A DNA stretch of 64,000 nucleotides from Pelagibacteraceae bacterium AG-422-B15 (GTDB lineage Bacteria; Pseudomonadota; Alphaproteobacteria; Pelagibacterales; AG-422-B15), in assembly GCA_905182345.1 (NCBI GenBank), contig CAJJBG010000015.1, positions 1 through 64,000 of the forward strand, given 5' to 3'. The notes under the pieces are model-generated. The model was not told where the DNA came from. It did no database searches and saw only the letters and a program-made list of their open reading frames with translations. Below are positions 22,084 through 37,138 of the stretch, one piece after another. A program made the position numbers and the translations under genes. Within the stretch, counting starts at the first letter, position 1. Each line of letters begins with the position of its first letter.

Positions 22084-23433
22084 CTATAAATAATAATCAT
22101 ATTCCTCTTTTGGTATAAAGGTAGAATTATATAAATTTTCCTCACCTCTTTTAACAGAAGAATATAGCTTAAGATAGTTTTCCCCAAAATATTCTTTTAA
22201 AATTTTTGAACTTTCAAATCTAATTAGGGAATTTTCTAATGAAGTAGGAATTTCTGAATCTGCCTGAGTTTCAATTCCAGCATTAGTGCCATACTCTATA
22301 AAGTGAGTCGGTTGTAATTTATTATTGATACCATGAAGTACACCAGCCAGAATACTAGCTAATGTTAAGTAAGCGTTTGCATCAGCTGATGCTACACGAT
22401 GCTCAATACGTCTAGCTTCATCTTTACCTGACGGAATTCTCAAGGCAACTGTTCTATTGTTATATCCCCATGATTTATTTACTGGCACAAATTGATCTGG
22501 TTTAATTCTTCTGAAACCATTTCGATTTGGAATAAAAATAGGAAAACTATCATAAAGAGATGATTGCATTCCTGCTATCGCATGTTTTAATAAATCACTA
22601 CCAAGATTATCACCTGATGAAAATAAATTGTTGTCTTTATCATCATACATTGACATATGTATATGCATACCACTTCCAGTTTGCTCTAAAAATGGCTTTG
22701 CCATAAATGTTGCTTCGTATCCATGCTTTAAAGTTGTTTCATGTATCACTCTTCTAAGAAGAGATGCATCATCAGCTGCTTTTAGTAAATCACTGGTGTG
22801 CGATAAGTTTATTTCATATTGAGTTGGAGCGAATTCACTTGTGAATGTTGAAGCTGGAATATTTTGAATTTTACAATTTTCATTTATGTCTTCTAGAAGT
22901 TTTTTAAAGATATCGAGCTCACGCATCCCATAGACATTTGTTTTATCTGCTCCTGCGGCAGGCATAGGTTTTCCTAAGTTATCTTTATTTTTATCTAATA
23001 AATAAAATTCAAGCTCAAAAGCAACCACGGGTTTTAAATTGATAGCATCAAATTTTTTTAAAATTGAAGCCAGCATATTTCTTGGGTCAAGAATAGAGGG
23101 TTTTTTTTCCTCGTCGCACATCGATACTAGTATTTGTAGAGTATTATCGTTCCATGGAACTTTTTTTATAGTGTCAGTAATGGGGAAAAATAGTCCATCT
23201 GGATCTCCATCGGCCCAACCTAGTTCAAGGTTATTGGTAACACCACCTAATGCATCTAAATAAAAAACTGAGTACGGTAGCTGAAATCCATCTTTAAATA
23301 TTTTACCCGCTTCACTTAATGGAAACCTTTTCCCCCTGACATACCCGCATAAATCAGTAAAAATAGCATCAAGATACTCAATTTTCTTATTCGAAATAAG
23401 TTGGTCTAGTTCTTTAATTTGAGCAATTTTCAT
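22084..23433 (-). CDS. puuA: glutamine synthetase family, gamma-glutamylputrescine synthetase-like
   Basis: FELEFYLLDK, TFMAKPFLEQTGSGMHIHMSM, NRTVALRIPSG; Puu-type neighbourhood. Confidence 0.75.
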   Translation of the reverse strand: MKIAQIKELDQLISNKKIEYLDAIFTDLCGYVRGKRFPLSEAGKIFKDGFQLPYSVFYLDALGGVTNNLELGWADGDPDGLFFPITDTIKKVPWNDNTLQILVSMCDEEKKPSILDPRNMLASILKKFDAINLKPVVAFELEFYLLDKNKDNLGKPMPAAGADKTNVYGMRELDIFKKLLEDINENCKIQNIPASTFTSEFAPTQYEINLSHTSDLLKAADDASLLRRVIHETTLKHGYEATFMAKPFLEQTGSGMHIHMSMYDDKDNNLFSSGDNLGSDLLKHAIAGMQSSLYDSFPIFIPNRNGFRRIKPDQFVPVNKSWGYNNRTVALRIPSGKDEARRIEHRVASADANAYLTLASILAGVLHGINNKLQPTHFIEYGTNAGIETQADSEIPTSLENSLIRFESSKILKEYFGENYLKLYSSVKRGEENLYNSTFIPKEEYDYYL

Positions 23434-23485: not shown

Positions 23486-24565
23486 TTAAAGACTGTTTTC
23501 GGTATGTCTTAAATACCAGTTTTTAAATGAGTTAACAGCTACTTCCATATGTGAAAGCTTGCCTGGAGCGTAGTGGTTTGAAAATATACCCTTTTGATTG
23601 TTTTCAATAATGGTCTTATCAGCCATAGTAGTTTGATCCCACATCCAAACCATTTTCTTAATATCATAGTCCTTACCTTCTTCGGCATCCTTATTGACTA
23701 GCCAAATTAATTCGACATCTGTATGTAATGGACCACGCGGTATAAACTTAAAAATAGTAGCAAAGTCATTGGTCATTAACAAACTGTTAAATGGAGATGG
23801 TCCTACTGAAGTATAGCCCCTATCAAAGTCTTTAAATTTGCCCATTAAAATACTAGCCGGTGTGCCGTCTCTTGTTTCAGACAATTTACCATCACTTAAA
23901 TGAGTTCTTTCAGCACTTCTGGAATATTGTGAAAAATCTTCTTCTTCATATTCACCTGTAAAGTGCCCTAGTGCTTTTACTTTATCATTCCAAGCCTCTA
24001 ACTCTTTTTTAAATTTTTCAGATACAGGTCCTGTATTTGCTCCTGCTCCATATGCTTGTATATATTCAGATGAATGCACTTCACAGTATTCTGGATGAGC
24101 AGGACCGCAATGATAACATTCGTGGAAATTATCTAAAGTTAACTTCCAATTTCCAAAAGTTGGATAAGTTTTTCGATAGGCAACTTTAGCCTTACTTAAA
24201 TCATGTAGTTCAATAAAATTTTGAACTGGTTTAATAAACTCATCAAAATTATCAGGGTTATCTGAAAAATTAAGAAAAACTAAGCCTTCATATATTTTTG
24301 AATGGCATATTCTATCATTAGAAATATATCTAGCTTCTATAGAATTTTCTAACTTTGTAACTTTTATGTCATCAGCAATAAGATTGAATATAAAATAATC
24401 TCCTATATTTTTAAAAGAACTAACGTGATCAACAAATACCCAGTGATTTAAAAAAAAGTTTGAATAATCAAGTTGGAATATATCTGGATCGAGATAGAAT
24501 GCTTGATCTAAGGTAAAGCCATCTCGTTGCTGCTTAATTAATTCTTTTAAAATTTGAGTATTCAT
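23486..24565 (-). CDS. Rieske oxygenase alpha-subunit paralog lacking the Rieske [2Fe-2S] motif
   Basis: Collinear with the 30110-31372 protein (GNWKLTLDNFHECYHCGPAH; VELIWLVNKDAEEGKDYDIKKMVWMWD) but CxH/CxxH cluster-binding segment absent. Confidence 0.85.
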   Translation of the reverse strand: MNTQILKELIKQQRDGFTLDQAFYLDPDIFQLDYSNFFLNHWVFVDHVSSFKNIGDYFIFNLIADDIKVTKLENSIEARYISNDRICHSKIYEGLVFLNFSDNPDNFDEFIKPVQNFIELHDLSKAKVAYRKTYPTFGNWKLTLDNFHECYHCGPAHPEYCEVHSSEYIQAYGAGANTGPVSEKFKKELEAWNDKVKALGHFTGEYEEEDFSQYSRSAERTHLSDGKLSETRDGTPASILMGKFKDFDRGYTSVGPSPFNSLLMTNDFATIFKFIPRGPLHTDVELIWLVNKDAEEGKDYDIKKMVWMWDQTTMADKTIIENNQKGIFSNHYAPGKLSHMEVAVNSFKNWYLRHTENSL

Positions 24566-24754
24566 TTTTTTATAAATTTGTACTGTATTTGTAGCTTATT
24601 TTATCTACAAAGAAATCTAAAAAATAAAACTCTTACAGAATAAAATGGCTGAAAATATAAGGTATTTCAAATAATTACTCAATAAATCTGAATCCATTTG
24701 ACCAATGTGAACCTGAGTGTACAATTTTATTATAAATAGTTGAAAGGAACAATA

Positions 24755-25894
24755 ATGGTAAAATTTGACGAAACTAAAAAATTCTTAGATCGCTTACATG
24801 ATGGTAAATTAAATCGTAGGTCATTTATGAAAGGCATGGGAGCCGCAGGGCTTGCTGCCGTATCAACAAGTCTTCTCTATTCTCAAACGGCACATGCTTA
24901 TGAGGGTGCAGCTAGAGTATTTCTATGGGGTGGTTATGATGACCCAGGTTTATTTGGCCCATATATCGAAAAACATGGTGATCCAGAATATGCTACATTT
25001 GGTGATGCTGAAGAAGGCTTAAAAAAATTAAAAGCTGGATTTGAGCAGGATGTAGCGTGGCCTTGCCAAGGTGAGATTAAGCGTTGGGTTAGAGGTGGTG
25101 TTTTGCAACCCTTAGACATCAGTCGAATGGAACATTGGGATGATATGTTTCCAGAGATAAGAGACTTACCTAGTGGAATTGTTAATGGTGAACATTATTT
25201 TGCACCAGTCGACTGGGGAGATACTTCTCTTACATACAATACTGCTAAAATAGACTGGATGTCACCTGCTCAGGGTAACGAAAGTCTTACTCTTATGGAG
25301 GATCCAAGATTAAAAGGTAAGCTTGGTATTCTTAATAGTGCAGCAGATAGTTTATATGTAATGATGCATTACTTAGGAACGGACATCACTAAATCTGAAT
25401 CATTAACTAAGGAAGCTATTGATCAAGGAATTAATAAGTATAGAGAGCTCAGAGACAACGGGCAAATCTTAACATTCTTTGATGATACAGCTTCAATTGC
25501 AGAAGCACTTGGTAATGAAGAAGTTTGGGCTGCAATGACTTGGAATGAAACGAGCTGGGAAACTGGTATGCCTTTCATGAAACCAAAAGAGCGTACGATG
25601 AATTGGGTCTGTGGAGTAGCACTTTGTGCAAACACGCCTAACATTGATAAAGCATACGATCTAATGAATGCTGCAACGAGTCCAGAAACTTCGGCGTATC
25701 TTTTATCAGAGTGGGGATATGGTCACAGCAATAAAAAAGGATTCAGTGCATTAACTGCAGCTGAGTTAGATGAACGAGGAGTAGCATCAAATCCTGTTGA
25801 ACACTTAGCAAATGGTGTTTTCTCAGTAATGCCTTCGGATGAAAATGCTGATTACATGGAAGCTCAGTGGGCTGAAATGGTAGCTGGTGGTTAA
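24755..25894 (+). CDS. polyamine-type ABC transporter substrate-binding protein (Tat signal)
   Basis: LNRRSFMKGMGAAGLAAV twin-arginine signal; PotD-like; ATG at 24755 preferred over the track TTG. Confidence 0.85.
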   Translation: MVKFDETKKFLDRLHDGKLNRRSFMKGMGAAGLAAVSTSLLYSQTAHAYEGAARVFLWGGYDDPGLFGPYIEKHGDPEYATFGDAEEGLKKLKAGFEQDVAWPCQGEIKRWVRGGVLQPLDISRMEHWDDMFPEIRDLPSGIVNGEHYFAPVDWGDTSLTYNTAKIDWMSPAQGNESLTLMEDPRLKGKLGILNSAADSLYVMMHYLGTDITKSESLTKEAIDQGINKYRELRDNGQILTFFDDTASIAEALGNEEVWAAMTWNETSWETGMPFMKPKERTMNWVCGVALCANTPNIDKAYDLMNAATSPETSAYLLSEWGYGHSNKKGFSALTAAELDERGVASNPVEHLANGVFSVMPSDENADYMEAQWAEMVAGG

Positions 25895-25923: not shown

Positions 25924-25963
25924 AATAGCCTGTCTCTAAAATCAGAGGTAGGCTATTTTTTTT
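25924..25963 (+). terminator. intrinsic terminator after the substrate-binding protein gene, shared convergently with potA-like gene
   Basis: AATAGCCTgtCTCTaaaatcAGAGgtAGGCTATT followed by T-run. Confidence 0.85.
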
Positions 25964-27038
25964 CGAGTAGAGCAATATCTTCTAAACCAATACTTACAAA
26001 ACATTCTCCAGTTTGAAAAGATTGATTATCAAAATGCTGGGATGAAACTGTAAGCACTTGATCTATTCCTTTAACTTCAACATAAAATCTTGTCATTTCA
26101 CCATAGTATGAAGTTTGTTTAATCGAGGCAGGTAAAGAAATATCCCAATCACTTTGTACTTCCCTTGAAATCATCATGGCTTCAGGTCTGATGCTGCAAA
26201 CAATATCACTAGTATTTGCGCTAATATTTAATCTATTATCTACTTTAAAATTTCCTAACGACTCAATGGCTACATCTATCTTATCACCATGTTTTTCATT
26301 CGTTTTTCCATTTAAGAAATTAGTCTCACCAATAAAATCACTAACAAAGATATTATTTGGATTCTTATATAGTTCGTTAGGCTGTGATAGTTGTTGAATT
26401 TTTCCCTCATTCATTACTGCTACTCTATCTGACATACTTATAGCTTCTTCTTGGTCATGAGTAACAAATACAAAAGTTATACCAATTGATTTTTGTAAAT
26501 TTCTTAACTCTAATTGCATTTCATCTCTTAATTTTTTATCTAATGCACCAAGCGGTTCATCTAATAATAATACTTTTGGCCTTCTCACAAGCGCTCTAGC
26601 CAGTGCAACTCTTTGCCTTTGGCCCCCTGAGAGTTGGTTGCTATATCGCTCTTCATATCCTTCTAATTTAACTAGAGATAGAACTTCCTCAACCCGTTGA
26701 TCATTTTCTGCTTTTGTCAGTCCTAATTTTCTTAAGCCAAATTGAATATTTTTAACAACATTTATGTGAGGAAAAATTGCATAGTTCTGAAATACCATAT
26801 TTGTTGGTCGCTTATTTGGAGGCAAAGCGGTAACATCAATACCATCAATTAACAAATCACCTTTTGTAGGATATTCAAAACCAGCCAGTAATCTAAGTAG
26901 AGTTGTTTTTCCACATCCAGATGGACCTAATAAGGAGAAAAACTCACCTTCTTTAATTTCTATCGAAATATCATCTACAGCTTTAACCTTACCAAAGTGC
27001 TTTGAAATATTTCTTACTTCTATGTATTTTTCATTCAT
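25953..27038 (-). CDS. potA: spermidine/putrescine-type ABC transporter ATP-binding protein
   Basis: GPSGCGKTTLLRLLAGFE, LSGGQRQRVALARAL, LLLDEPLGALD, TOBE-like C-terminus. Confidence 0.88.
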   Translation of the reverse strand: MNEKYIEVRNISKHFGKVKAVDDISIEIKEGEFFSLLGPSGCGKTTLLRLLAGFEYPTKGDLLIDGIDVTALPPNKRPTNMVFQNYAIFPHINVVKNIQFGLRKLGLTKAENDQRVEEVLSLVKLEGYEERYSNQLSGGQRQRVALARALVRRPKVLLLDEPLGALDKKLRDEMQLELRNLQKSIGITFVFVTHDQEEAISMSDRVAVMNEGKIQQLSQPNELYKNPNNIFVSDFIGETNFLNGKTNEKHGDKIDVAIESLGNFKVDNRLNISANTSDIVCSIRPEAMMISREVQSDWDISLPASIKQTSYYGEMTRFYVEVKGIDQVLTVSSQHFDNQSFQTGECFVSIGLEDIALLEKK

Positions 27039-27051
27039 ATCTAAATCCTAT

Positions 27052-27852
27052 TTAAATTTTAAAATCTTTTTCTTTCGCTTGCCCTAGATTCATTAACCAA
27101 TAAGCCAGCAAAACAACAAACGTAGTAGCAACTATTATTATCGCACCTAAGGCTAAAACATGAGGTAGTTTTTTAATAAATCTGAGCTGATTCCACATGT
27201 ACATTGGAAGAGTTGGATCGCTACCAGACAAGAAAAAAGCTAGAATAAATTCATCAAAAGAAATTATAAATCCCAACAAAAGAGATGCAATAATGCCAGG
27301 TAGATACAAAGGGAATGAAACCTTCCAGAAAGTTCCCCAGGCATTCTCACCAAGATCACGTGACGCTTCTTCAAGACTACTATCAAATCCTTCAATCCTT
27401 GAAACTAGAATCAGCATGCAGAAGGGAGTGCAAAATAAAATATGGCCGATTGTGACTGGTACTAAGCCTAATTTAAAACCAAGACTCAACCAGATTACTA
27501 TTAATGAAACGGCAAGAATAATCTCTGGTATTAAAAATGGAAGTAAAACTGCTGCATAGGAAACTCTAGAGCCTATAAATTTATACTTTGTAAATGCTTT
27601 TGCAGCCATCAAGGCAATTACTGTGCTTACTACACTAGCAATCACACCAACTTTTACACTTACCCATAATGCTCTAAATACTGGAGTTTTTGACCACATG
27701 TCTTCATAATGTCTAAATGTAAATCCACTAAGAGGGAATGACATGTAATTAGAATCATTGAAACTAAACAAAGGTAAGAAAAGAACTGGAATATACAAAA
27801 ATAAAAAGTAAAAAATTGTATACACTAATAATGAGTTATTTTTTTGTTCCAC
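27052..27852 (-). CDS. potC: polyamine-type ABC transporter permease (PotC-like)
   Basis: EASRDLGENAWGTFWKVSFPLYLPGI EAA motif. Confidence 0.85.
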   Translation of the reverse strand: MEQKNNSLLVYTIFYFLFLYIPVLFLPLFSFNDSNYMSFPLSGFTFRHYEDMWSKTPVFRALWVSVKVGVIASVVSTVIALMAAKAFTKYKFIGSRVSYAAVLLPFLIPEIILAVSLIVIWLSLGFKLGLVPVTIGHILFCTPFCMLILVSRIEGFDSSLEEASRDLGENAWGTFWKVSFPLYLPGIIASLLLGFIISFDEFILAFFLSGSDPTLPMYMWNQLRFIKKLPHVLALGAIIIVATTFVVLLAYWLMNLGQAKEKDFKI

Positions 27853-28737
27853 TTATGCCACTCTTTGCGTTAATTTTTTTGTTGCATAAGAGACAATCAT
27901 TGTAATACTTGCAACCGCTGCAAGCATAATAACTGCTGACACTGCTCCCATGGGGATATTATTCACTTTACCAAAATATGACTGAATCATATATGATAAC
28001 ATACGTCCATCAACACCTCCCACCATCTGAGGCGTAACATAATCTCCAACAGTAGGAATAAAGATAATTAAGATTGCCCCTATTACACCAGGCAAGGAAA
28101 GGGGGAACGTAACTCTCCAGAAAGTTTCCAGTCTAGAATTACCTAAATCTCTTGAAGCTTCAATTAAAGAGTAATCAATTTTATCTAACGATACATATAA
28201 TGGTAGTAATGCAAATGCAGCCCAAGCATGTGATAAGGTAATAACAACTGCTGTTTGACTGTACATAATAAATGTTAATGGCTCACTTATAAGTCCAAGT
28301 GTTATTAGACCTGAATTAATAACTCCTTTTGTGCCTAAAATAATTTTCCAAGAAAATATTCTAAGTAAGTAAGAAGTCCAAAAAGGTAATGACATTAAGA
28401 TTAGCCATAAGGTCTTATTTTTTTTAACATAAAAAGCAATATAGTATGCTACTGGATAAGCTGTTAGTAGAGTGACAAAAGTGACAATGAATGATATTTT
28501 TACTGACTTGAACAAAAGAGAGGTTAAAAGAGGTTTATTAAAAAATTCAACATATCTATCTGTAGTGAAACTATAATCAATTTCATTCATATTAATCTGA
28601 GTAAAAAAACTAAAGGCTATAGTTAGCAGCATTGGCGTTAGCATAACGCAGAAAAAGAAAATAAGTGCAGGGGTTAAAAGAGTATAGGCTTTAACGTTAT
28701 CACTTCTTGCATACAGTTTGTTAATGTATCTCCACAT
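27853..28737 (-). CDS. potB: polyamine-type ABC transporter permease (PotB-like)
   Basis: EASRDLGNSRLETFWRVTFPLSLPGVIG EAA motif. Confidence 0.85.
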   Translation of the reverse strand: MWRYINKLYARSDNVKAYTLLTPALIFFFCVMLTPMLLTIAFSFFTQINMNEIDYSFTTDRYVEFFNKPLLTSLLFKSVKISFIVTFVTLLTAYPVAYYIAFYVKKNKTLWLILMSLPFWTSYLLRIFSWKIILGTKGVINSGLITLGLISEPLTFIMYSQTAVVITLSHAWAAFALLPLYVSLDKIDYSLIEASRDLGNSRLETFWRVTFPLSLPGVIGAILIIFIPTVGDYVTPQMVGGVDGRMLSYMIQSYFGKVNNIPMGAVSAVIMLAAVASITMIVSYATKKLTQRVA

Positions 28738-28773: not shown

Positions 28774-30129
28774 TTATAATTCTCTTCTAATCTCTGATAA
28801 ATTATAATACCAAAGCATAAATCTAAGGTACCATAGTCTTAAAAATGGAAATGGAATTTTTGGTGCTAAACCTGACATAACTGCTGGAATATTAACATTT
28901 CCACTATTAGATTCACAAATTAATTCGGCAAGTTTTTTGCCACAGTACACGGTCGAATTATTCCCATTAGCATGATAGCCAAATGAGAAATAAACACTTG
29001 GATCTTTTTCCAAGTTACCTACAGATGGGGTGAAGTCTCTAGTCATTACAACGGTACCTCTCCAATAATGGGAAATATCTACGGAGTTCCACTCTGGAAA
29101 TACTTGACCAAAACGCTTTGTCATCCAACTTCTCATTTTAGCTGCACTCTCATTATCTCCGTAGGTATCACCCCGAGCACCAAATAACATTCTATTGTTT
29201 GGCATTCTTCTATAGTAAAATAATAGTTCCCTGCTATTACAGATTGGAGTAAGTGTTTTAAAATTTTGTAATTCAAACTCATCTTCTGTCATTTCTCTCG
29301 TAACAATAATATTTGAGAGAACCGGCATCATACGACCTGAAAAACTTTTATGCAGAGACTCGTCTGTATAACCATTTGTTGCAACTACAACTTTGTTTGC
29401 TGTAATGGATCCATCTTTAGTAATAAGTTTATGTCGTCCATCATTTTTTTCCCATTTAATAACGTTAGAGTGTCCATGTAATTTAGCTCCTGCAAGATGT
29501 GCCGCATTTGCAAAACCCATTAGAAATTTAAGAGGATTCATTGCAAAGCCTTCATCCATATGAATAGCTCCAAACTGTTCAGTAGATTTATGTCCAATTT
29601 GATCAAATTCTTCTTTTGGAAACCAGCTAGTTTTAATATTAAAATATTTTTGAAGCTCTTCTCCCCACACTTTTAATCCGTCAGCACTATCTGGATGATG
29701 AGCTACATCATAATTACCTCGACCAGCTTTTTCACAGTCAATATTGTTTTCTTGCATTATAGATTCAAGTAAGTGTATTCCCTCAACTTGAGCTTGAAAG
29801 AATTTTTTTGTTTCTTCTATTCCATATTTTTTAAAAAGTTGCTTATTAGAAAGCTTGGTTGATGGCAAACATACAAATCCAGCATTTCTTCCAGAACTAG
29901 CCCAACCAACATGGCCAGCCTCAAGCAAATGTACATCACTTCCATACTTTTTAGCCAAGTGATAAGCAGTCGAAATTCCTGTAAAACCTCCCCCAATAAC
30001 AACTACATCACATTTCTGATCACCATTTAATTTTGGGTAATTATCTTGATTTGGATGGCTGGTTTCTTCCCAGTAGCTCTTGACTGGATTATCAAAATCG
30101 TAAATGTCCTTATGATATATGCGACCCAT
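28774..30129 (-). CDS. FAD-dependent oxidoreductase (DAO family), PuuB-like
   Basis: CDVVVIGGGFTGISTAYHLAKKYGSDVHLLEAGHVGWASSGRNAGF; LFGARGD; GYHANG. Confidence 0.85.
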   Translation of the reverse strand: MGRIYHKDIYDFDNPVKSYWEETSHPNQDNYPKLNGDQKCDVVVIGGGFTGISTAYHLAKKYGSDVHLLEAGHVGWASSGRNAGFVCLPSTKLSNKQLFKKYGIEETKKFFQAQVEGIHLLESIMQENNIDCEKAGRGNYDVAHHPDSADGLKVWGEELQKYFNIKTSWFPKEEFDQIGHKSTEQFGAIHMDEGFAMNPLKFLMGFANAAHLAGAKLHGHSNVIKWEKNDGRHKLITKDGSITANKVVVATNGYTDESLHKSFSGRMMPVLSNIIVTREMTEDEFELQNFKTLTPICNSRELLFYYRRMPNNRMLFGARGDTYGDNESAAKMRSWMTKRFGQVFPEWNSVDISHYWRGTVVMTRDFTPSVGNLEKDPSVYFSFGYHANGNNSTVYCGKKLAELICESNSGNVNIPAVMSGLAPKIPFPFLRLWYLRFMLWYYNLSEIRREL

Positions 30130-31372
30130 TTAAATTCCTCTTAACACTATTAAGATACCAATTATAGAAATAACTAACAGCACGTTCTGTTTCAGATAGT
30201 CTACCTGGTTTGTAAGATTTTGATAGAATTCCTTTGTAATTATTTTCAATAATTTGGGTATCTTCCTGTGTTGTTACATCCCACATCCAAATCATTCTTT
30301 CAATATCATACTGATCTTCGTTGACCTCTTTATCTACTAGCCAGATTAATTCGACTTCAGTATTAAAAGTGTCTATTGGCTTAAATATAAATAAAACTCC
30401 AAAATCATTATTAAAATATGTATTTGCAAATGGGTTAAAGCTAATTTGTGTAACACCACCATCAGGTCCAAATTTTTTAAATTTTCCCATTAACGTAGAG
30501 GCAAATTTTCCATTTTCAGTTTCAGATTCATTTCCATTCCCTATTGGAACTCTGTCTGCATACCGTGTAAGACCGGATTCTGTTTCAGTTTCTAAATAAC
30601 ATTGATTTATAATACCTCTTTTATCTAATTCTTCAGTCCAAGGTTTAATTTTTTCTTCATAAGCTGTAGTTTCCTCATCAGGTGCACTGCCTTTTCCAGC
30701 ACCATAAATTTTTACAAAATCTTTCTCATGAACAGCACTATATGATTGATGAGAAGGAGCACAATGATAGCACTCTTGAAAATTCTCAACTGTAGTCTTC
30801 CAGTTTGCTGATGTGGAATATTTTTTTCTGAAAGCAATTTTTGAATTTTCAGGCTCATGCAAATTAAGGTATGGAATTAATGGTGCTATAAAGTCCTCAA
30901 AACTATCTGGTTCGCCAGAGGTTAAATTTAAAAAAATTAAACCATTCTGAATTGCTAAGTTACATTTTCTTAAGCCCCATTCTTTTGGATCAAAATCATC
31001 AGGCATAAATCGAGCAGCTTTTAAGTTTCCTTCTGCATCAAAACTCCATGCATGATATGGACATACTAAAAGTTTTTTATTACCCTCTTCTTCTAAGCAG
31101 ACTCTAGAGCCTCTATGTGTACATACATTATAAAATGCTCTAATGACATCATCTCTGCCTCTAATAATAATTATAGATTCTTTTTCGACATCAAATAAAA
31201 AATAATCACCAGGATTCGGAATTCTAGAAACATGATCAACAGTTAGCCATTGGTTAAAATAAATATTTTTTATTTCATCAATATAAATTGTAGGGCTAGT
31301 ATAGAATTCTCGAGGAAGGCTTTTACCTTCTGAATAACTTTCTGTAAGTTTTTTAATGTTAATATTGCTCAT
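30110..31372 (-). CDS. Rieske 2Fe-2S aromatic-ring-hydroxylating dioxygenase-type alpha subunit
   Basis: Rieske motif CTHRGSRVCLEEEGNKKLLVCPYHAWSF; mononuclear Fe motif ENFQECYHCAPSH. Confidence 0.92.
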   Translation of the reverse strand: MSNINIKKLTESYSEGKSLPREFYTSPTIYIDEIKNIYFNQWLTVDHVSRIPNPGDYFLFDVEKESIIIIRGRDDVIRAFYNVCTHRGSRVCLEEEGNKKLLVCPYHAWSFDAEGNLKAARFMPDDFDPKEWGLRKCNLAIQNGLIFLNLTSGEPDSFEDFIAPLIPYLNLHEPENSKIAFRKKYSTSANWKTTVENFQECYHCAPSHQSYSAVHEKDFVKIYGAGKGSAPDEETTAYEEKIKPWTEELDKRGIINQCYLETETESGLTRYADRVPIGNGNESETENGKFASTLMGKFKKFGPDGGVTQISFNPFANTYFNNDFGVLFIFKPIDTFNTEVELIWLVDKEVNEDQYDIERMIWMWDVTTQEDTQIIENNYKGILSKSYKPGRLSETERAVSYFYNWYLNSVKRNLNGSHIS

Positions 31373-31388
31373 ACTTTATTTTGTATGT

Positions 31389-32774
31389 TTACCAGAGGCC
31401 TTCTTTTTTAATATCCTCAGTCGCCATAACAATGCCTTGTCTTAAAATTCCAACCAAATCATCTATTTGCTTTTTCGTTATGATTAACGATGGGGACATC
31501 ACGCACGTGCTAAATAATGGTCTTACTATTAGGCCTAAATCTTGGCAGTGCTCATTTATTCTAGATCCAATTTCATAAGATAAGTTTAGAGGGTCTTTGT
31601 TATCTTTATTTCCAACGCACTCAACTGCAGCCATAAGCCCTTCCCCTCTTACTTCACCAACGATAGGCAGATCTTCTAATTCTTTTAACTGTTCTTGAAA
31701 ATAAGGGCCTACCTCTTTGACATGATCTAAAAGATTATGCTCTTCCATATAAGTTAGGCTAGCATTTGCTGCGGCCATAGCGACTGGATGACCTGAATCA
31801 GTAAACCCATTAGAAAAAATTACTCTTTCCTTATTATCCAATTCAGCCATGAGTTTTTCAGATATTAGAACAGCACCACATGGCACATACCCACTTGTTA
31901 TTCCTTTTGCAGCAACAATTATATCAGGTGTAAAGTCAAAATAATTTTCTGATGCAAAAATATGTCCAAGTCGACCAAATGCTGTAACAATTTCATCTGA
32001 AATATAGATTACATCATATTTACGGCATACTTCAGAAGTTTTCTTATGATAGCCTTTTGGGGGAACAATAACCCCACCTGAAGCTAGTATTGGTTCTGCA
32101 ATAAAAGCTGCAACATTTTCTGGGCCAAGTTCTATAATTTTGTCTTCTAATTCTTTTACTTTTGCATCACAAAACTCATCAATTGTTAGACTACTATCTT
32201 TACGGTATGGATTTGGTGCTGATATATGATGAACAATATCTGTGGCAAAATCGAAGTTATTTTTATCTCTTTCTTTACCTGAACACGATGCTCCCAAATA
32301 TGTACTTCCATGATAACCATCGTGTCTTCCAATAATTTTCTTTTTATTTCTAAGGCCACGTACATTATTAAAAAACATAACAAACCTCAGCGCTGAATCT
32401 ACAGCAGCCGATCCTCCTGAGGTAAAGAAAACTCTTTTTAAATCACCAGGTGCATACTCTGCTATTCTTTCTGCAAATACTGCTCTTACTGAAGTTGATT
32501 CAGTGAATGGACTAGCATATGACATTGTTCGAATTTGATTTGAAACTGCATCTGCAATTTCTTCAACACCGTGACCTATATTAACATTCCACATACCACC
32601 AGGCCCATCAATGAACTTACGGCCATCTTTATCGTACAGATAAATTCCTTTGGATTTTTCAATGAAGGTTCTTCCACCTTCACCTCTATATTCCAAGTAT
32701 TCCCAAGGATGTAAGGTTGTTAAATCTTTTTTATCTAATTCTTTGGTATTTAAATTATCTACTCTCAAAACCAT
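31389..32774 (-). CDS. class III PLP-dependent aminotransferase
   Basis: FFTSGGSAAVDSALRF, YISDEIVTAFGRLG, AAKGITSGYVPCGAV; ATG at 32774 removes overlap with upstream gene. Confidence 0.88.
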   Translation of the reverse strand: MVLRVDNLNTKELDKKDLTTLHPWEYLEYRGEGGRTFIEKSKGIYLYDKDGRKFIDGPGGMWNVNIGHGVEEIADAVSNQIRTMSYASPFTESTSVRAVFAERIAEYAPGDLKRVFFTSGGSAAVDSALRFVMFFNNVRGLRNKKKIIGRHDGYHGSTYLGASCSGKERDKNNFDFATDIVHHISAPNPYRKDSSLTIDEFCDAKVKELEDKIIELGPENVAAFIAEPILASGGVIVPPKGYHKKTSEVCRKYDVIYISDEIVTAFGRLGHIFASENYFDFTPDIIVAAKGITSGYVPCGAVLISEKLMAELDNKERVIFSNGFTDSGHPVAMAAANASLTYMEEHNLLDHVKEVGPYFQEQLKELEDLPIVGEVRGEGLMAAVECVGNKDNKDPLNLSYEIGSRINEHCQDLGLIVRPLFSTCVMSPSLIITKKQIDDLVGILRQGIVMATEDIKKEGLW

Positions 32775-32782
32775 AATATTTT

Positions 32783-33979
32783 TTAATAAACCTCCGCCGG
32801 AACTGCATTTCTTCTTTCCGGTGTATAGAATTGTCGTTTTACTACTTTGCATGTCGCCCAGATCTTTCTGTATTCTAATTCTTCTGGGTGATAAATTTCT
32901 ACAAATATGTCTTCTTTAATCTTAACTCCATAAGGTCTTTTTAAAGAGGCTATTGCAATATTTCTTTTTAATGTTGGTGACCAAATAGCAGCAGTGACAA
33001 TTCCAATATCTTCTTTCTTTTTATTATAAACTACCGCTCCATGTGCAGGCTTATCTCCATCAATATCAAGTCCAACTAAAACTCTTTCTGTGGTACTGTT
33101 TTCTTTTTCTTTGATTAAAGTTCTTTTGCCCACAAAGTAATCTTCTTTGTTTAAATGAACCAGCCAACCCATGCCAATTTCATATGGCGATCTCATTCTA
33201 ACTGGTCTTAATGCATGTTCAGAACTTACAAAATCTGTTCCTGTTTGAATAAAACCAGCTTCAATTCTAACCATTTCAAGGCCATACATACCCATTGGTC
33301 TAATTTTTAGATGTTTTCCAGCTTCCATTAAACTGTCCCACATTGCTTCAGCATTTTTTGGATCAGTCCATAGTTCATAACCCAGATCTCCTGTGAATCC
33401 TGTGCGGGAAACTAAAACTTCATATCCATCAATACTATATTTTTTCATTTCAAATGGCTTTAAGGTTTCAACATCTGATGCTCCATAATTTTTAAGCGTA
33501 GAACAAGACGTAGGACCTTGCACTGATAAGGCGGCGGTTTCATCAGTCACTTCTTTAATATCGACTTCAAAACCCTCAGCTGAATCTTTAAGCCATGTTA
33601 ACATCCTTACGGCACAGCAAAGTTTAAACTCATTCTGATTCATACAAAAGACTGTCCCATCATCAACAACCTTTCCATCTTCATTGCACCAGATAACGTA
33701 GGCCACTGTATTATCTTTCATTTTTGATAAATCTCTTGTGACTAAATAATTCATAAACTGCTTAGCTCTTTCACCTTTAATGTCATATTTGTACATAGGG
33801 GTAAGATCCATAACTGAAGTTCCATTTCTTGTAGCGGTATATTCTAATTCAGTAGTCGAATACTCTGCAACAACAGTGTAGCCAGCCCATCGATACCAAG
33901 TGTTGGTTCTACAAGCTAAGCTAGTTCGTGAATGAAAGGGTGTAAGCTTTAAGGCTTCTTCTCTTAAATCTTTATTCAT
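32783..33979 (-). CDS. GcvT/aminomethyltransferase-family protein
   Basis: GTSVMDLTPMYKYDIKG, SRTGFTGDLGYELW, GMYGLEMVRIEAGF, GWLVHLNKEDYFVGKRTL. Confidence 0.88.
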   Translation of the reverse strand: MNKDLREEALKLTPFHSRTSLACRTNTWYRWAGYTVVAEYSTTELEYTATRNGTSVMDLTPMYKYDIKGERAKQFMNYLVTRDLSKMKDNTVAYVIWCNEDGKVVDDGTVFCMNQNEFKLCCAVRMLTWLKDSAEGFEVDIKEVTDETAALSVQGPTSCSTLKNYGASDVETLKPFEMKKYSIDGYEVLVSRTGFTGDLGYELWTDPKNAEAMWDSLMEAGKHLKIRPMGMYGLEMVRIEAGFIQTGTDFVSSEHALRPVRMRSPYEIGMGWLVHLNKEDYFVGKRTLIKEKENSTTERVLVGLDIDGDKPAHGAVVYNKKKEDIGIVTAAIWSPTLKRNIAIASLKRPYGVKIKEDIFVEIYHPEELEYRKIWATCKVVKRQFYTPERRNAVPAEVY

Positions 33980-33980
33980 A

Positions 33981-35510
33981 TCATAAATCCTTTAAAACTG
34001 TATTTGCAGCATTCTTACCTGGTATACCTGTCATGCCACCACCAGGATGTGTTCCTGCTCCACACATGTAAAATCCATGTAGTGGTGTTTTATACTGAGC
34101 AGCACCTGGAATTGGTCTAAGCATAAATAATTGATCGATTTGTATTTCTCCATGATGCCAATGGCCTCCACTCACATTAAAATCTTTTTCAATATCATTT
34201 GGTGAAATAAATTCTTGGCGTTCTACGCAAGCCTTTATATCTGGAGCATATTTTTCAATAGTTGATAGAACACTATTTATACACTCAGCAGATTTATTTT
34301 CCCAACCTCCTCTAACATCATAAGGTGCGTATTGAATTTGAACATTCATCACATGCATATCCTCGTCACATAATGAATTGTCATATATTGATGGAATAGA
34401 TATTTCTAATATTGGGTCTTTAGATAGATTTTCAAATTTACTGAAATTAAAATTTTCCTCAATATAATCAATTGAAGGCGCAACCACTAGCCTTTGGGAT
34501 AAATCTGACTGATCTAAACCCTTAAATTCAGGGATTTTTTTTAATTTTAAGCTAAGTTTTGCTACACGTCCTTTAGCGCGATAATGTTTTACTTTACGCT
34601 TAAAGTCTGTATCCAGATGTTCTGTTCCCAGTAAACAAAAATATGTAGATTTTGGATCAGCACTTGAAATTACAGTTTTTGCTTCAATTAATTCACCATT
34701 ATCTAATTCAACTCCCTCAACACGATCATTTTTAATAATGCACTTTTTAACTGCAGTAGATTTTCTTATTTCAACACCTCTTTTTATAATGTTATTTTCA
34801 AGTGCTTTAATAATTGAAATAACACCACCTTCATTTTGCTTTATTCCACCAAAGATCGAGTTATCATATGTGGCCATACGATAAAGAAGATTAATTAAGG
34901 TTCCCGGTGATCTAGGGCCTAAGTTTGATCCAGTTATTGAGTCATGTGCAATCAATCCCTGTAGCAATGGATTTTTAAAGTTATCCTCAAGTTCATCAGC
35001 AACATTTAAGCCTATCATGCGAGCAAACTCATTAAAGTTTTTCTTACCGAACAAGCGAACATTTAGTCCAAGTTTGAAAATTTTAAAATTATCAGAAAAA
35101 CTATTTGTCATAATTCTTGGGGGTGAAGACTGCATAAATGCTCCAAGTGTTTTTGAAAAAAGGCTAAGTTTTTTTTCTAGTGCAAGAAAATTATCTGCAT
35201 CCTCTGCAGAGAAACCTTCTAATGTCTTTTGGTCTTCATTTTTATTTCCTGAAAGTTTTAGATGCTGCCCTGTTTCAGATAATGCAATTGATTTTATAGA
35301 ACGTAGATTAGTTGAAATAGCATCAATTGAAGATGTAACATTCTTATGAAGTCCTGGAATAAAATTTGTTAATTGATTTGTAAGTAGTCCACCACACTCA
35401 TCTCTGGCTTCACAAATTAAAACTTTTTTATTTTTTTTGGATAGAATATTTGCACACACTAAGGCGTTATGACCTCCTCCAATAATAATCACATCATAAA
35501 TTTTACTCAT
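33981..35510 (-). CDS. phytoene desaturase/PYROXD2-like FAD oxidoreductase, copy 1
   Basis: IIIGGGHNALVCANILSKKNKKVLICEARDECGG; C-terminal MCGAGTHPGGGMTGIPGKNAA. Confidence 0.85.
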   Translation of the reverse strand: MSKIYDVIIIGGGHNALVCANILSKKNKKVLICEARDECGGLLTNQLTNFIPGLHKNVTSSIDAISTNLRSIKSIALSETGQHLKLSGNKNEDQKTLEGFSAEDADNFLALEKKLSLFSKTLGAFMQSSPPRIMTNSFSDNFKIFKLGLNVRLFGKKNFNEFARMIGLNVADELEDNFKNPLLQGLIAHDSITGSNLGPRSPGTLINLLYRMATYDNSIFGGIKQNEGGVISIIKALENNIIKRGVEIRKSTAVKKCIIKNDRVEGVELDNGELIEAKTVISSADPKSTYFCLLGTEHLDTDFKRKVKHYRAKGRVAKLSLKLKKIPEFKGLDQSDLSQRLVVAPSIDYIEENFNFSKFENLSKDPILEISIPSIYDNSLCDEDMHVMNVQIQYAPYDVRGGWENKSAECINSVLSTIEKYAPDIKACVERQEFISPNDIEKDFNVSGGHWHHGEIQIDQLFMLRPIPGAAQYKTPLHGFYMCGAGTHPGGGMTGIPGKNAANTVLKDL

Positions 35511-37138
35511 CAGTAGTAATTACCTTTTTGCTTAATGTTCATGTCATTTAATATTTCTCGAGCAGCGTTGGCTCCTGGTGCCCCCATAACTCCACCACCT
35601 GGATGAGTACTAGAGCTACACATGTATAAATCTTTTATAGGAGCTCGATATTGTGCATACCCAGTAATGGGTCTATTAAACATCAATTGATCCATTGTTA
35701 GTTCACCTTGAAAGATATTACCTTCTGTTAAACCAACTTCATCATGTATGTCCTTTGGAGTTCTAATCTCATAGTGGGCGATTAAGTCTTTAAAATCAGG
35801 AGAGTATTCAGAAATACGATTGATTATATGCTTACCAAATTCTTGTTTTTTTTTCTCATTCCAGCCGCCATCAGCCAGATCAAATGGAACATACTGAATA
35901 AAAACTGACATAAAGTGTTTGCCTGGAGCTGCCATAGTTGGATCACTCTTTGATGGTATACACATATCAACATATGGAAATTCTGACCATTTTCCACGCT
36001 TCCAATCATCGTACGCACCTTCCATCTCTTCTATTGTCTCTGTAAAATGCATGTCTCCACCACCACCTGGATCATCTTTTGGTATTGACGGAAATGTTGG
36101 CAATCCTTCAAGAGCTATATTCAGCTTTCCAGAAGATCCTCTAATTTTAAAATTCTTAACTCTTTTTACAAACTCTGGTTCTAAATCACTTTCATTAGTA
36201 ATTTTTAAGAATGTTCTTTTCACATCTAAGTTCGAAACAATTTTTTTAGCATAGAACTCATCACCACTTTTAGTGGCAACACCTATAGCTCTTCCATTTT
36301 TTACAATTACATTTGTTACTTCGGAACTTGCTTGAATAACTCCACCATGACTTTTAAAACATTCGCTCATCGCCTGAGTTATTGAACCCATTCCACCACG
36401 TGCATAGCCCCATGAGCCTATAGCGCCATCAACTTCACCCATATAATGATGCAACAAAACATAAGCTGACCCAGGAGAACAGGGTCCCAAGGCCGTTCCA
36501 ATAATAGCACTTCCAGATAAGTGGGCTTTTACAATATCACTTTCAAAGTATTCTTCTAAATAATCTCTGATACTCATTGTATAAAAACGTATGGTATCAT
36601 AAATTTCTTTTTCACCTAAACCACCTAATTCATCTTTTGCAGCAAAGTATTTTGCAAATTCTAATGCACCAAATATATCTTTAGGCTTAAAAGAAGTTAA
36701 GTCTGGTGGAGTCATTTTTAATAATGGTTTAATGATTTTACACTGACGCATAACATCCCGGCTATAACGATCATAAGCCTCAGCATCATGAACAGAGTGT
36801 CGTGATATAGCTTTAACCGTCATATCATGATCATGATAATTAGCATAATAATCGCCATTCTTCATCATCGTTGCACTTCCTTCATAAGGAATAATTTGCA
36901 ACCCATATTTGTATAATTCTAAATCTCTCATAATCTCGGGACGTAAAAGGCTGCAAACATAAGAACAGTTAGAATATTTCCATCCTGGATACAATTCTCT
37001 ACTTACTGCAGCTCCCCCAATATATTCATTCTTTTCTAGAACAAGAACTTTAAGGCCAGCTTTTGCCATATAGGACGCTGCTGTGAGACCATTGTGGCCA
37101 GCACCGACAACTATTGCATCATAAGTATCTTTAGACAT
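35510..37138 (-). CDS. phytoene desaturase/PYROXD2-like FAD oxidoreductase, copy 2
   Basis: IVVGAGHNGLTAASYMAKAGLKVLVLEKNEYIGG; C-terminal MCSSSTHPGGGVMGAPGANAA. Confidence 0.87.
   Translation of the reverse strand: MSKDTYDAIVVGAGHNGLTAASYMAKAGLKVLVLEKNEYIGGAAVSRELYPGWKYSNCSYVCSLLRPEIMRDLELYKYGLQIIPYEGSATMMKNGDYYANYHDHDMTVKAISRHSVHDAEAYDRYSRDVMRQCKIIKPLLKMTPPDLTSFKPKDIFGALEFAKYFAAKDELGGLGEKEIYDTIRFYTMSIRDYLEEYFESDIVKAHLSGSAIIGTALGPCSPGSAYVLLHHYMGEVDGAIGSWGYARGGMGSITQAMSECFKSHGGVIQASSEVTNVIVKNGRAIGVATKSGDEFYAKKIVSNLDVKRTFLKITNESDLEPEFVKRVKNFKIRGSSGKLNIALEGLPTFPSIPKDDPGGGGDMHFTETIEEMEGAYDDWKRGKWSEFPYVDMCIPSKSDPTMAAPGKHFMSVFIQYVPFDLADGGWNEKKKQEFGKHIINRISEYSPDFKDLIAHYEIRTPKDIHDEVGLTEGNIFQGELTMDQLMFNRPITGYAQYRAPIKDLYMCSSSTHPGGGVMGAPGANAAREILNDMNIKQKGNYY

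Follow-up and report, generated by a model that had tools for sequence, protein, structure and literature searches.

The 64,000-nucleotide stretch of contig CAJJBG010000015.1 analysed here (the window) comes from the genome of Pelagibacteraceae bacterium AG-422-B15 (G000; 1.2 Mb, 98.7% complete) and encodes two paralogous oxygenases, which we term B′ and A. A first-pass annotation had described an open reading frame (ORF) at 23486-24565 as a Rieske oxygenase paralog that lost its Rieske domain and kept its mononuclear iron site. This ORF (B′) is real, beginning with ATG and encoding 359 residues in a frame that, as claimed, is intact along its full length, but its strand had to be corrected. 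The B′ and A genes are both carried on the minus strand, and a plus-strand reading of the two stretches was ruled out by stops throughout.

Pfam searches identified in A both the Rieske domain (PF00355, 1.7e-16) and PF00848, and both metal sites of this protein are complete in alignment. B′ returned PF00848 (Ring_hydroxyl_A, 2.7e-27); neither PF00355 nor a CxH...CxxH motif was found in it. The end-to-end alignment of the two proteins reported earlier was reproduced by BLASTP (36% identity over 410 columns at E 2e-91); the 57 gap positions fall mainly where the Rieske cluster sits. The counterparts of the A residues C84, H86, C104 and H107 are all gone, in agreement with the claim that B′ is devoid of Rieske ligands. 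The catalytic motif DNFHECYHCGPAH and the downstream segment MADKTIIENNQ, both said to be kept, were located in B′. Residue roles were assigned by alignment to CntA, in which E205 is the bridging glutamate, H208, H213 and D323 are the iron ligands and C206 and C209 form a cysteine pair (PMC7948474, PMC10952381); B′ retains the corresponding E149, H152, H157, D316, C150 and C153. A Cys-X-X-Cys pair near the iron site is a feature of group V (quaternary amine) Rieske oxygenases (PMC10952381), a trait that C150 and C153 provide in B′. GbcA (NF058607) was the best NCBIfam model for both proteins, at scores (B′ 188.7, A 275 bits) far below its cut-off of 670 bits.

An AlphaFold2 model of B′ built from 21 aligned sequences gave a predicted local distance difference test score (pLDDT) of 93.0 and a predicted template-modelling (TM) score of 0.91. 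The base beta-strands of the Rieske domain are kept in this prediction (E43-47 to E95-99, pLDDT ~95). As modelled, only the [2Fe-2S] cluster-binding part of the domain, about 57 residues, is excised from B′ and the base of the fold remains. Foldseek placed TM1040_3219 (3n0q) and Stc2 (3vca) as the best matches in the PDB, with TM scores of ~0.88-0.89, and a model of B′ from another family member (pLDDT 91.9) found the same matches. In each of the five B′ types measured, 45-46 residues separate the HWVF/QWVF motif from the CH/SH motif.

B′ is a real, conserved and rare variant. Full-length Rieske-less B′ was present in 40 of the 54 genomes of the window's taxonomic family, with a fragment in three more; four of the others contain A only and seven contain neither gene. 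The A-only contigs are not long enough to extend as far as B′ (3.8, 6.5 and 7.5 kb, together with that of G067, which has 4.6 kb left), and the genomes with neither gene are all at most 77% complete. Each of the 30 contigs read carries the two genes on one strand, at a spacing of 5.5-7.2 kb. The first-pass annotation had proposed that its reading would fall if sister genomes kept the Rieske motif or if the paralogs never co-occurred; instead, the sister B′ genes also have no motif, and A and B′ are always found together wherever no contig end comes between them. In samples from the rest of the order (398 genomes), of the class (387) and of the phylum (399), every form seen was intact and none was Rieske-less, and a literature search for oxygenases worded as being without Rieske found nothing. 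Two further candidates were rejected as Rieske-less genes. L065:663-1646 (AG-447-L18) keeps a CPYH half-motif and is broken in its 5′ part, probably through a frameshift or assembly fault, while L006/L106 (G008) lacks the motif only because its ORF is cut off where the contig begins.

B′ is under purifying selection. The median pairwise ratio of non-synonymous to synonymous substitution rates (dN/dS) was 0.066 for B′ and 0.038 for A, computed without the window sequences, which have no close relatives. All 30 B′ proteins compared share E149, C150, H152, C153, H157 and D316. Furthermore, 48 positions of the catalytic domain reach 93% conservation or more among 39 intact enzymes, and the window B′ keeps 47 of these. 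The earlier assertion that this is not a dead gene is well supported by the family orthologs at the same locus, their invariant iron ligands, the low dN/dS and the constant pairing with A.

The two genes also mark the limits of a discordant block in the window genome. Against G001 and G003, which belong to the same genus, the aminotransferase and the glutamine-synthetase-like protein show 93-95% and 94-95% protein identity, respectively. Inside the block the values are 60-63% for A, ~70% for the oxidase, 72-79% for the permeases and ATPase, 64-66% for the binding protein and 40% for B′; the same block genes are 84-94% identical between G001 and G004. DNA identity to G001 drops from >90% to ~55% at 23.3-23.5 kb and recovers to 79-87% at 31.5-31.75 kb, a block of ~8 kb (23.4-31.4 kb). 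With B′ at one end of this block and A at the other, it is most simply read as the replacement of the whole A-to-B′ cassette by recombination, whereby A and B′ would have been exchanged together.

As the first-pass annotation did, we infer, with a probability of about 0.58, that B′ is an alpha-prime catalytic subunit fed by the Rieske cluster of A in a mixed assembly, the complex, the electron transfer and the substrate all being part of this inference. According to this proposal, a group V oxygenase of the stachydrine demethylase/GbcA/CntA type would have lost its cluster-binding subdomain while keeping the rest of its fold, giving rise to B′. B′ and A would then associate in a C3-type oligomer, either a mixed trimer or A3/B′3, in which the Rieske cluster of A would adjoin the mononuclear iron of B′ and electrons would pass through Glu149. 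The putative A-to-B′ step is what each subunit of a homotrimer does for its neighbour: in such oxygenases a glutamate bridges the ~12 Å between the cluster of one subunit and the iron of its neighbour (PMC7948474, PMC12445004), and intersubunit transfer through this residue (E205) is established for CntA (PMC7948474). Mixed assembly is the best reading because B′ retains the glutamate that bridges the cluster and the iron of the next subunit. Also in its favour are the invariant iron ligands and cysteine pair, the purifying selection, the lack of any other unattached Rieske source in the genome and the existence of mixed-subunit oxygenases such as NdmA/NdmB (PMC12445004). For a physical complex of A with B′ the evidence is indirect, consisting of their linkage on 30 of 30 contigs and their apparent joint exchange.

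A whole-genome PF00355 scan of G000 returned four Rieske proteins, namely A, two other intact oxygenases and a 183-residue protein named as bc1-type from its size and family. A split-off Rieske domain encoded elsewhere was rejected by the same scan, and A is the sole linked Rieske cluster for B′. An NdmD-like Rieske donor was likewise rejected, as neither PF00175 nor a Rieske-bearing reductase was found in G000. In this 98.7% complete genome, three Rieske oxygenases were found but no PF00175 reductase. A small [2Fe-2S] ferredoxin-like ORF of 112 residues lies on its contig C7.

Several points weigh against a mixed assembly fed by A. No ferredoxin-NADP reductase (FNR)-type protein (PF00175) was found in G000 by a search that works in controls, which leaves A itself with no evident electron route. 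In a head-to-tail trimer, each B′ would leave one neighbouring iron site without a Rieske partner, so that no more than two sites could be fed in a mixed trimer. A is itself a complete enzyme that could work alone. Additionally, the four other B′ types of the family keep the iron site, yet several residues that do not vary among intact enzymes, such as Y151, are gone from them and three residues are inserted between their iron histidines (ECAHCWGGEFTH); the insert and the lost positions could signify altered or lost iron chemistry in those proteins. The resulting HX7H spacing in place of HX4H, as in L094:11824-12909, would be an unusual iron site if iron is bound.

These divergent positions and the insert, together with the constant pairing with A, would fit a pseudo-enzyme, a subunit of structural or regulatory rather than catalytic function that would join A in an assembly and shape stability or substrate access. 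Non-redox partners are common in the superfamily, as the beta subunits of alpha3beta3 oxygenases show (PMC12445004). We nevertheless consider this unlikely. H152, H157, D316, E149 and both cysteines are invariant in every B′ despite the loss of other conserved positions, the window protein departs from the intact enzymes at only one of the 48 conserved positions, and a purely structural subunit would not need a full iron site and a bridging glutamate.

It is less likely still that B′ is catalytic without A, as an oligomer of its own that receives electrons from a small ferredoxin, from the Rieske cluster of another oxygenase or from peroxide. The ferredoxin-like ORF on C7 would provide one such source, the Rieske-less oxygenase NdmC is proposed to be served by the cluster of another protein (PMC4408171) and a peroxide shunt has been shown for CntA (PMC10952381). 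Such independence, however, would account neither for B′ being always linked to A nor for the two genes apparently having been exchanged jointly in G000, and neither a Rieske-bearing reductase nor a stand-alone Rieske ferredoxin is present in G000. Gene decay, a strain-specific deletion or an assembly error, conceivable insofar as in-frame deletions do occur generally, is refuted by the sister genomes: full-length Rieske-less genes occur in 40 of the 54 family genomes, frames are open throughout, the junction length is the same and dN/dS is 0.066.

Returning to the mixed assembly of B′ and A, we tentatively extend it to a group V oxygenase with two obligate subunits, B′ being the substrate-specific catalytic one and A mainly an electron donor; the pair would diversify with the linked substrate-binding protein as an exchangeable cassette of streamlined marine bacteria. 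If true, this would constitute a third way to separate the two metal sites, besides NdmCDE and the chlorophyllide a oxygenase (CAO) of Micromonas. Rieske oxygenases are the textbook case of electrons crossing between subunits, yet homotrimers do not let the donor and acceptor roles be separated. A natural pair with the cluster on one subunit alone would make cluster-to-iron assignment, stoichiometry and one-sided mutation accessible. B′ also indicates that a Rieske fold can lose its cluster-binding part, keep its base and stay under selection.

Comparison with known systems places B′ closest to Stc2, the group Vb stachydrine demethylase (PDB 3vca/4qup) and the best named match (phmmer 1.9e-47, TM 0.88). 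The two share the catalytic domain, the cysteine pair, the iron ligands and the bridging glutamate, but every subunit of the Stc2 homotrimer (alpha3) carries a Rieske cluster, whereas B′ has none. In the Micromonas CAO, Kunugi (2013) is said to have found the Rieske and iron sites split between chains, one each, while A keeps both; CAO, moreover, belongs to a different oxygenase subfamily. That enzyme works as two polypeptide chains (PMC9615114). NdmC of caffeine N7-demethylation, offered earlier as a precedent, holds as a non-heme iron oxygenase without its own Rieske cluster, but not as to the source of electrons: its proposed donor is an additional Rieske cluster, which is fused to the reductase NdmD and acts with NdmE, and not the cluster of a paralog (PMC4408171). 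For B′, no NdmD-like reductase was found in the genome, and the only linked Rieske cluster sits on the full paralog A. Two paralogous oxygenase alpha subunits do share one complex in the alpha3-alpha-prime3 NdmA/NdmB (PMC12445004), although both of these, unlike B′, have Rieske clusters. For the glycine betaine monooxygenase GbcA, the partner reductase is of the GbcB type, which was not found in G000.

Phylogenetic analysis placed A in a clade of its own and derived B′ from a lineage of intact single oxygenases in MarineAlpha5-type Alphaproteobacteria and marine Bacteroidota. Such single oxygenases of other marine bacteria are the nearest Rieske-intact relatives of B′, at 66-67% identity in the catalytic part, above the 44% shared with the neighbouring A; no A-type gene was found beside the intact MarineAlpha5-type or marine Bacteroidota oxygenase in 12 genomes. 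A history compatible with any of the functional readings is that the Rieske cluster was lost twice independently, once in the common B′ of the family and once in the window B′, the latter being a MarineAlpha5-like enzyme gained by horizontal transfer. In free trees the window B′ does not group with the others, and over the catalytic domain it shares 66% identity with intact MarineAlpha5 enzymes and 42-44% with other B′ proteins. This history is nonetheless doubtful. A single origin was not rejected by the approximately unbiased (AU) test (p 0.10 and 0.096 for the catalytic domain; 0.47 once the N-terminal part was included), the B′ types occupy the same locus with the same junction length of 45-46 residues, and S-x-F replaces S-R-I just ahead of the site in both kinds of B′. 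Two losses at one locus, if true, would strengthen the functional claim.

Features of the B′ and A locus, in window coordinates.
Feature	Position	Strand	Basis
B′ (P0001), Rieske-less oxygenase alpha-prime subunit (proposed), 359 residues	23486..24565	-	ORF; PF00848 only; AlphaFold2; Foldseek
ECYHCGPAH: bridging Glu149, Cys150/Cys153 pair, putative iron ligands His152 and His157	24095..24121	-	invariant; CntA alignment
Asp316, putative third iron ligand (= CntA Asp323)	23618..23620	-	invariant; role by homology (PMC7948474)
Junction, ~residues 72-86, site of missing cluster-binding part	24308..24352	-	
A (P0002), intact Rieske oxygenase alpha subunit, 420 residues, proposed electron donor partner	30110..31372	-	PF00355 + PF00848
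Rieske cluster ligands of A, C84, H86 ... C104, H107	31052..31123	-	sequence
Glutamine-synthetase-like (gamma-glutamylputrescine synthetase-like), directly downstream of B′	22084..23433	-	NF045547 3.8e-62, under cut-off; synteny
Substrate-binding protein, PotD/PotF-like	24740..25894	+	divergent, between B′ and transporter
ATP-binding cassette (ABC) transporter, spermidine/putrescine type	25953..28737	-	ATPase 25953-27038; permeases 27052-27852, 27853-28737; family operon synteny
FAD-dependent oxidoreductase (DAO)	28774..30129	-	PF01266 5e-57; synteny
Upstream operon genes: class III aminotransferase, GcvT-like folate-dependent demethylase-like protein, two CrtI-type FAD oxidoreductases	31389..37138	-	

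Across the family the operon runs CrtI, GcvT, aminotransferase, A, FAD oxidase, two permeases and ATPase, followed by the reversed binding protein and an amidase and then by B′ and the glutamine-synthetase-like gene. The type of the transporter was assigned from gene order and the linked binding protein. The amidase (~500 residues, PF01425), which other family members (L088-L107) carry between the genes for the binding protein and B′, is missing from the window operon. This gene neighbourhood, together with kinship to Stc2 and GbcA, suggests that the reaction is an oxidative N-dealkylation and that the substrate, imported by the linked transporter, would be a methylated amine, betaine or polyamine-like compound. 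The pair is widespread in a marine bacterial family of small genomes, and since the operon looks like one for methylated-amine or polyamine use, it may matter for marine nitrogen and one-carbon (C1) cycling.

In the operon of G009 (L088), the transporter (66-71%) and the binding protein (42%) are outliers whereas A is not; the uptake genes may thus also undergo exchange separately from the rest of the operon. Finally, in the MarineAlpha5-like L036, carbon-nitrogen hydrolase and agmatine-deiminase-type (PAD_porph) genes at ~4.6-6.7 kb lie a few kb from an intact B-type oxygenase, hinting at polyamine or guanidino substrates.
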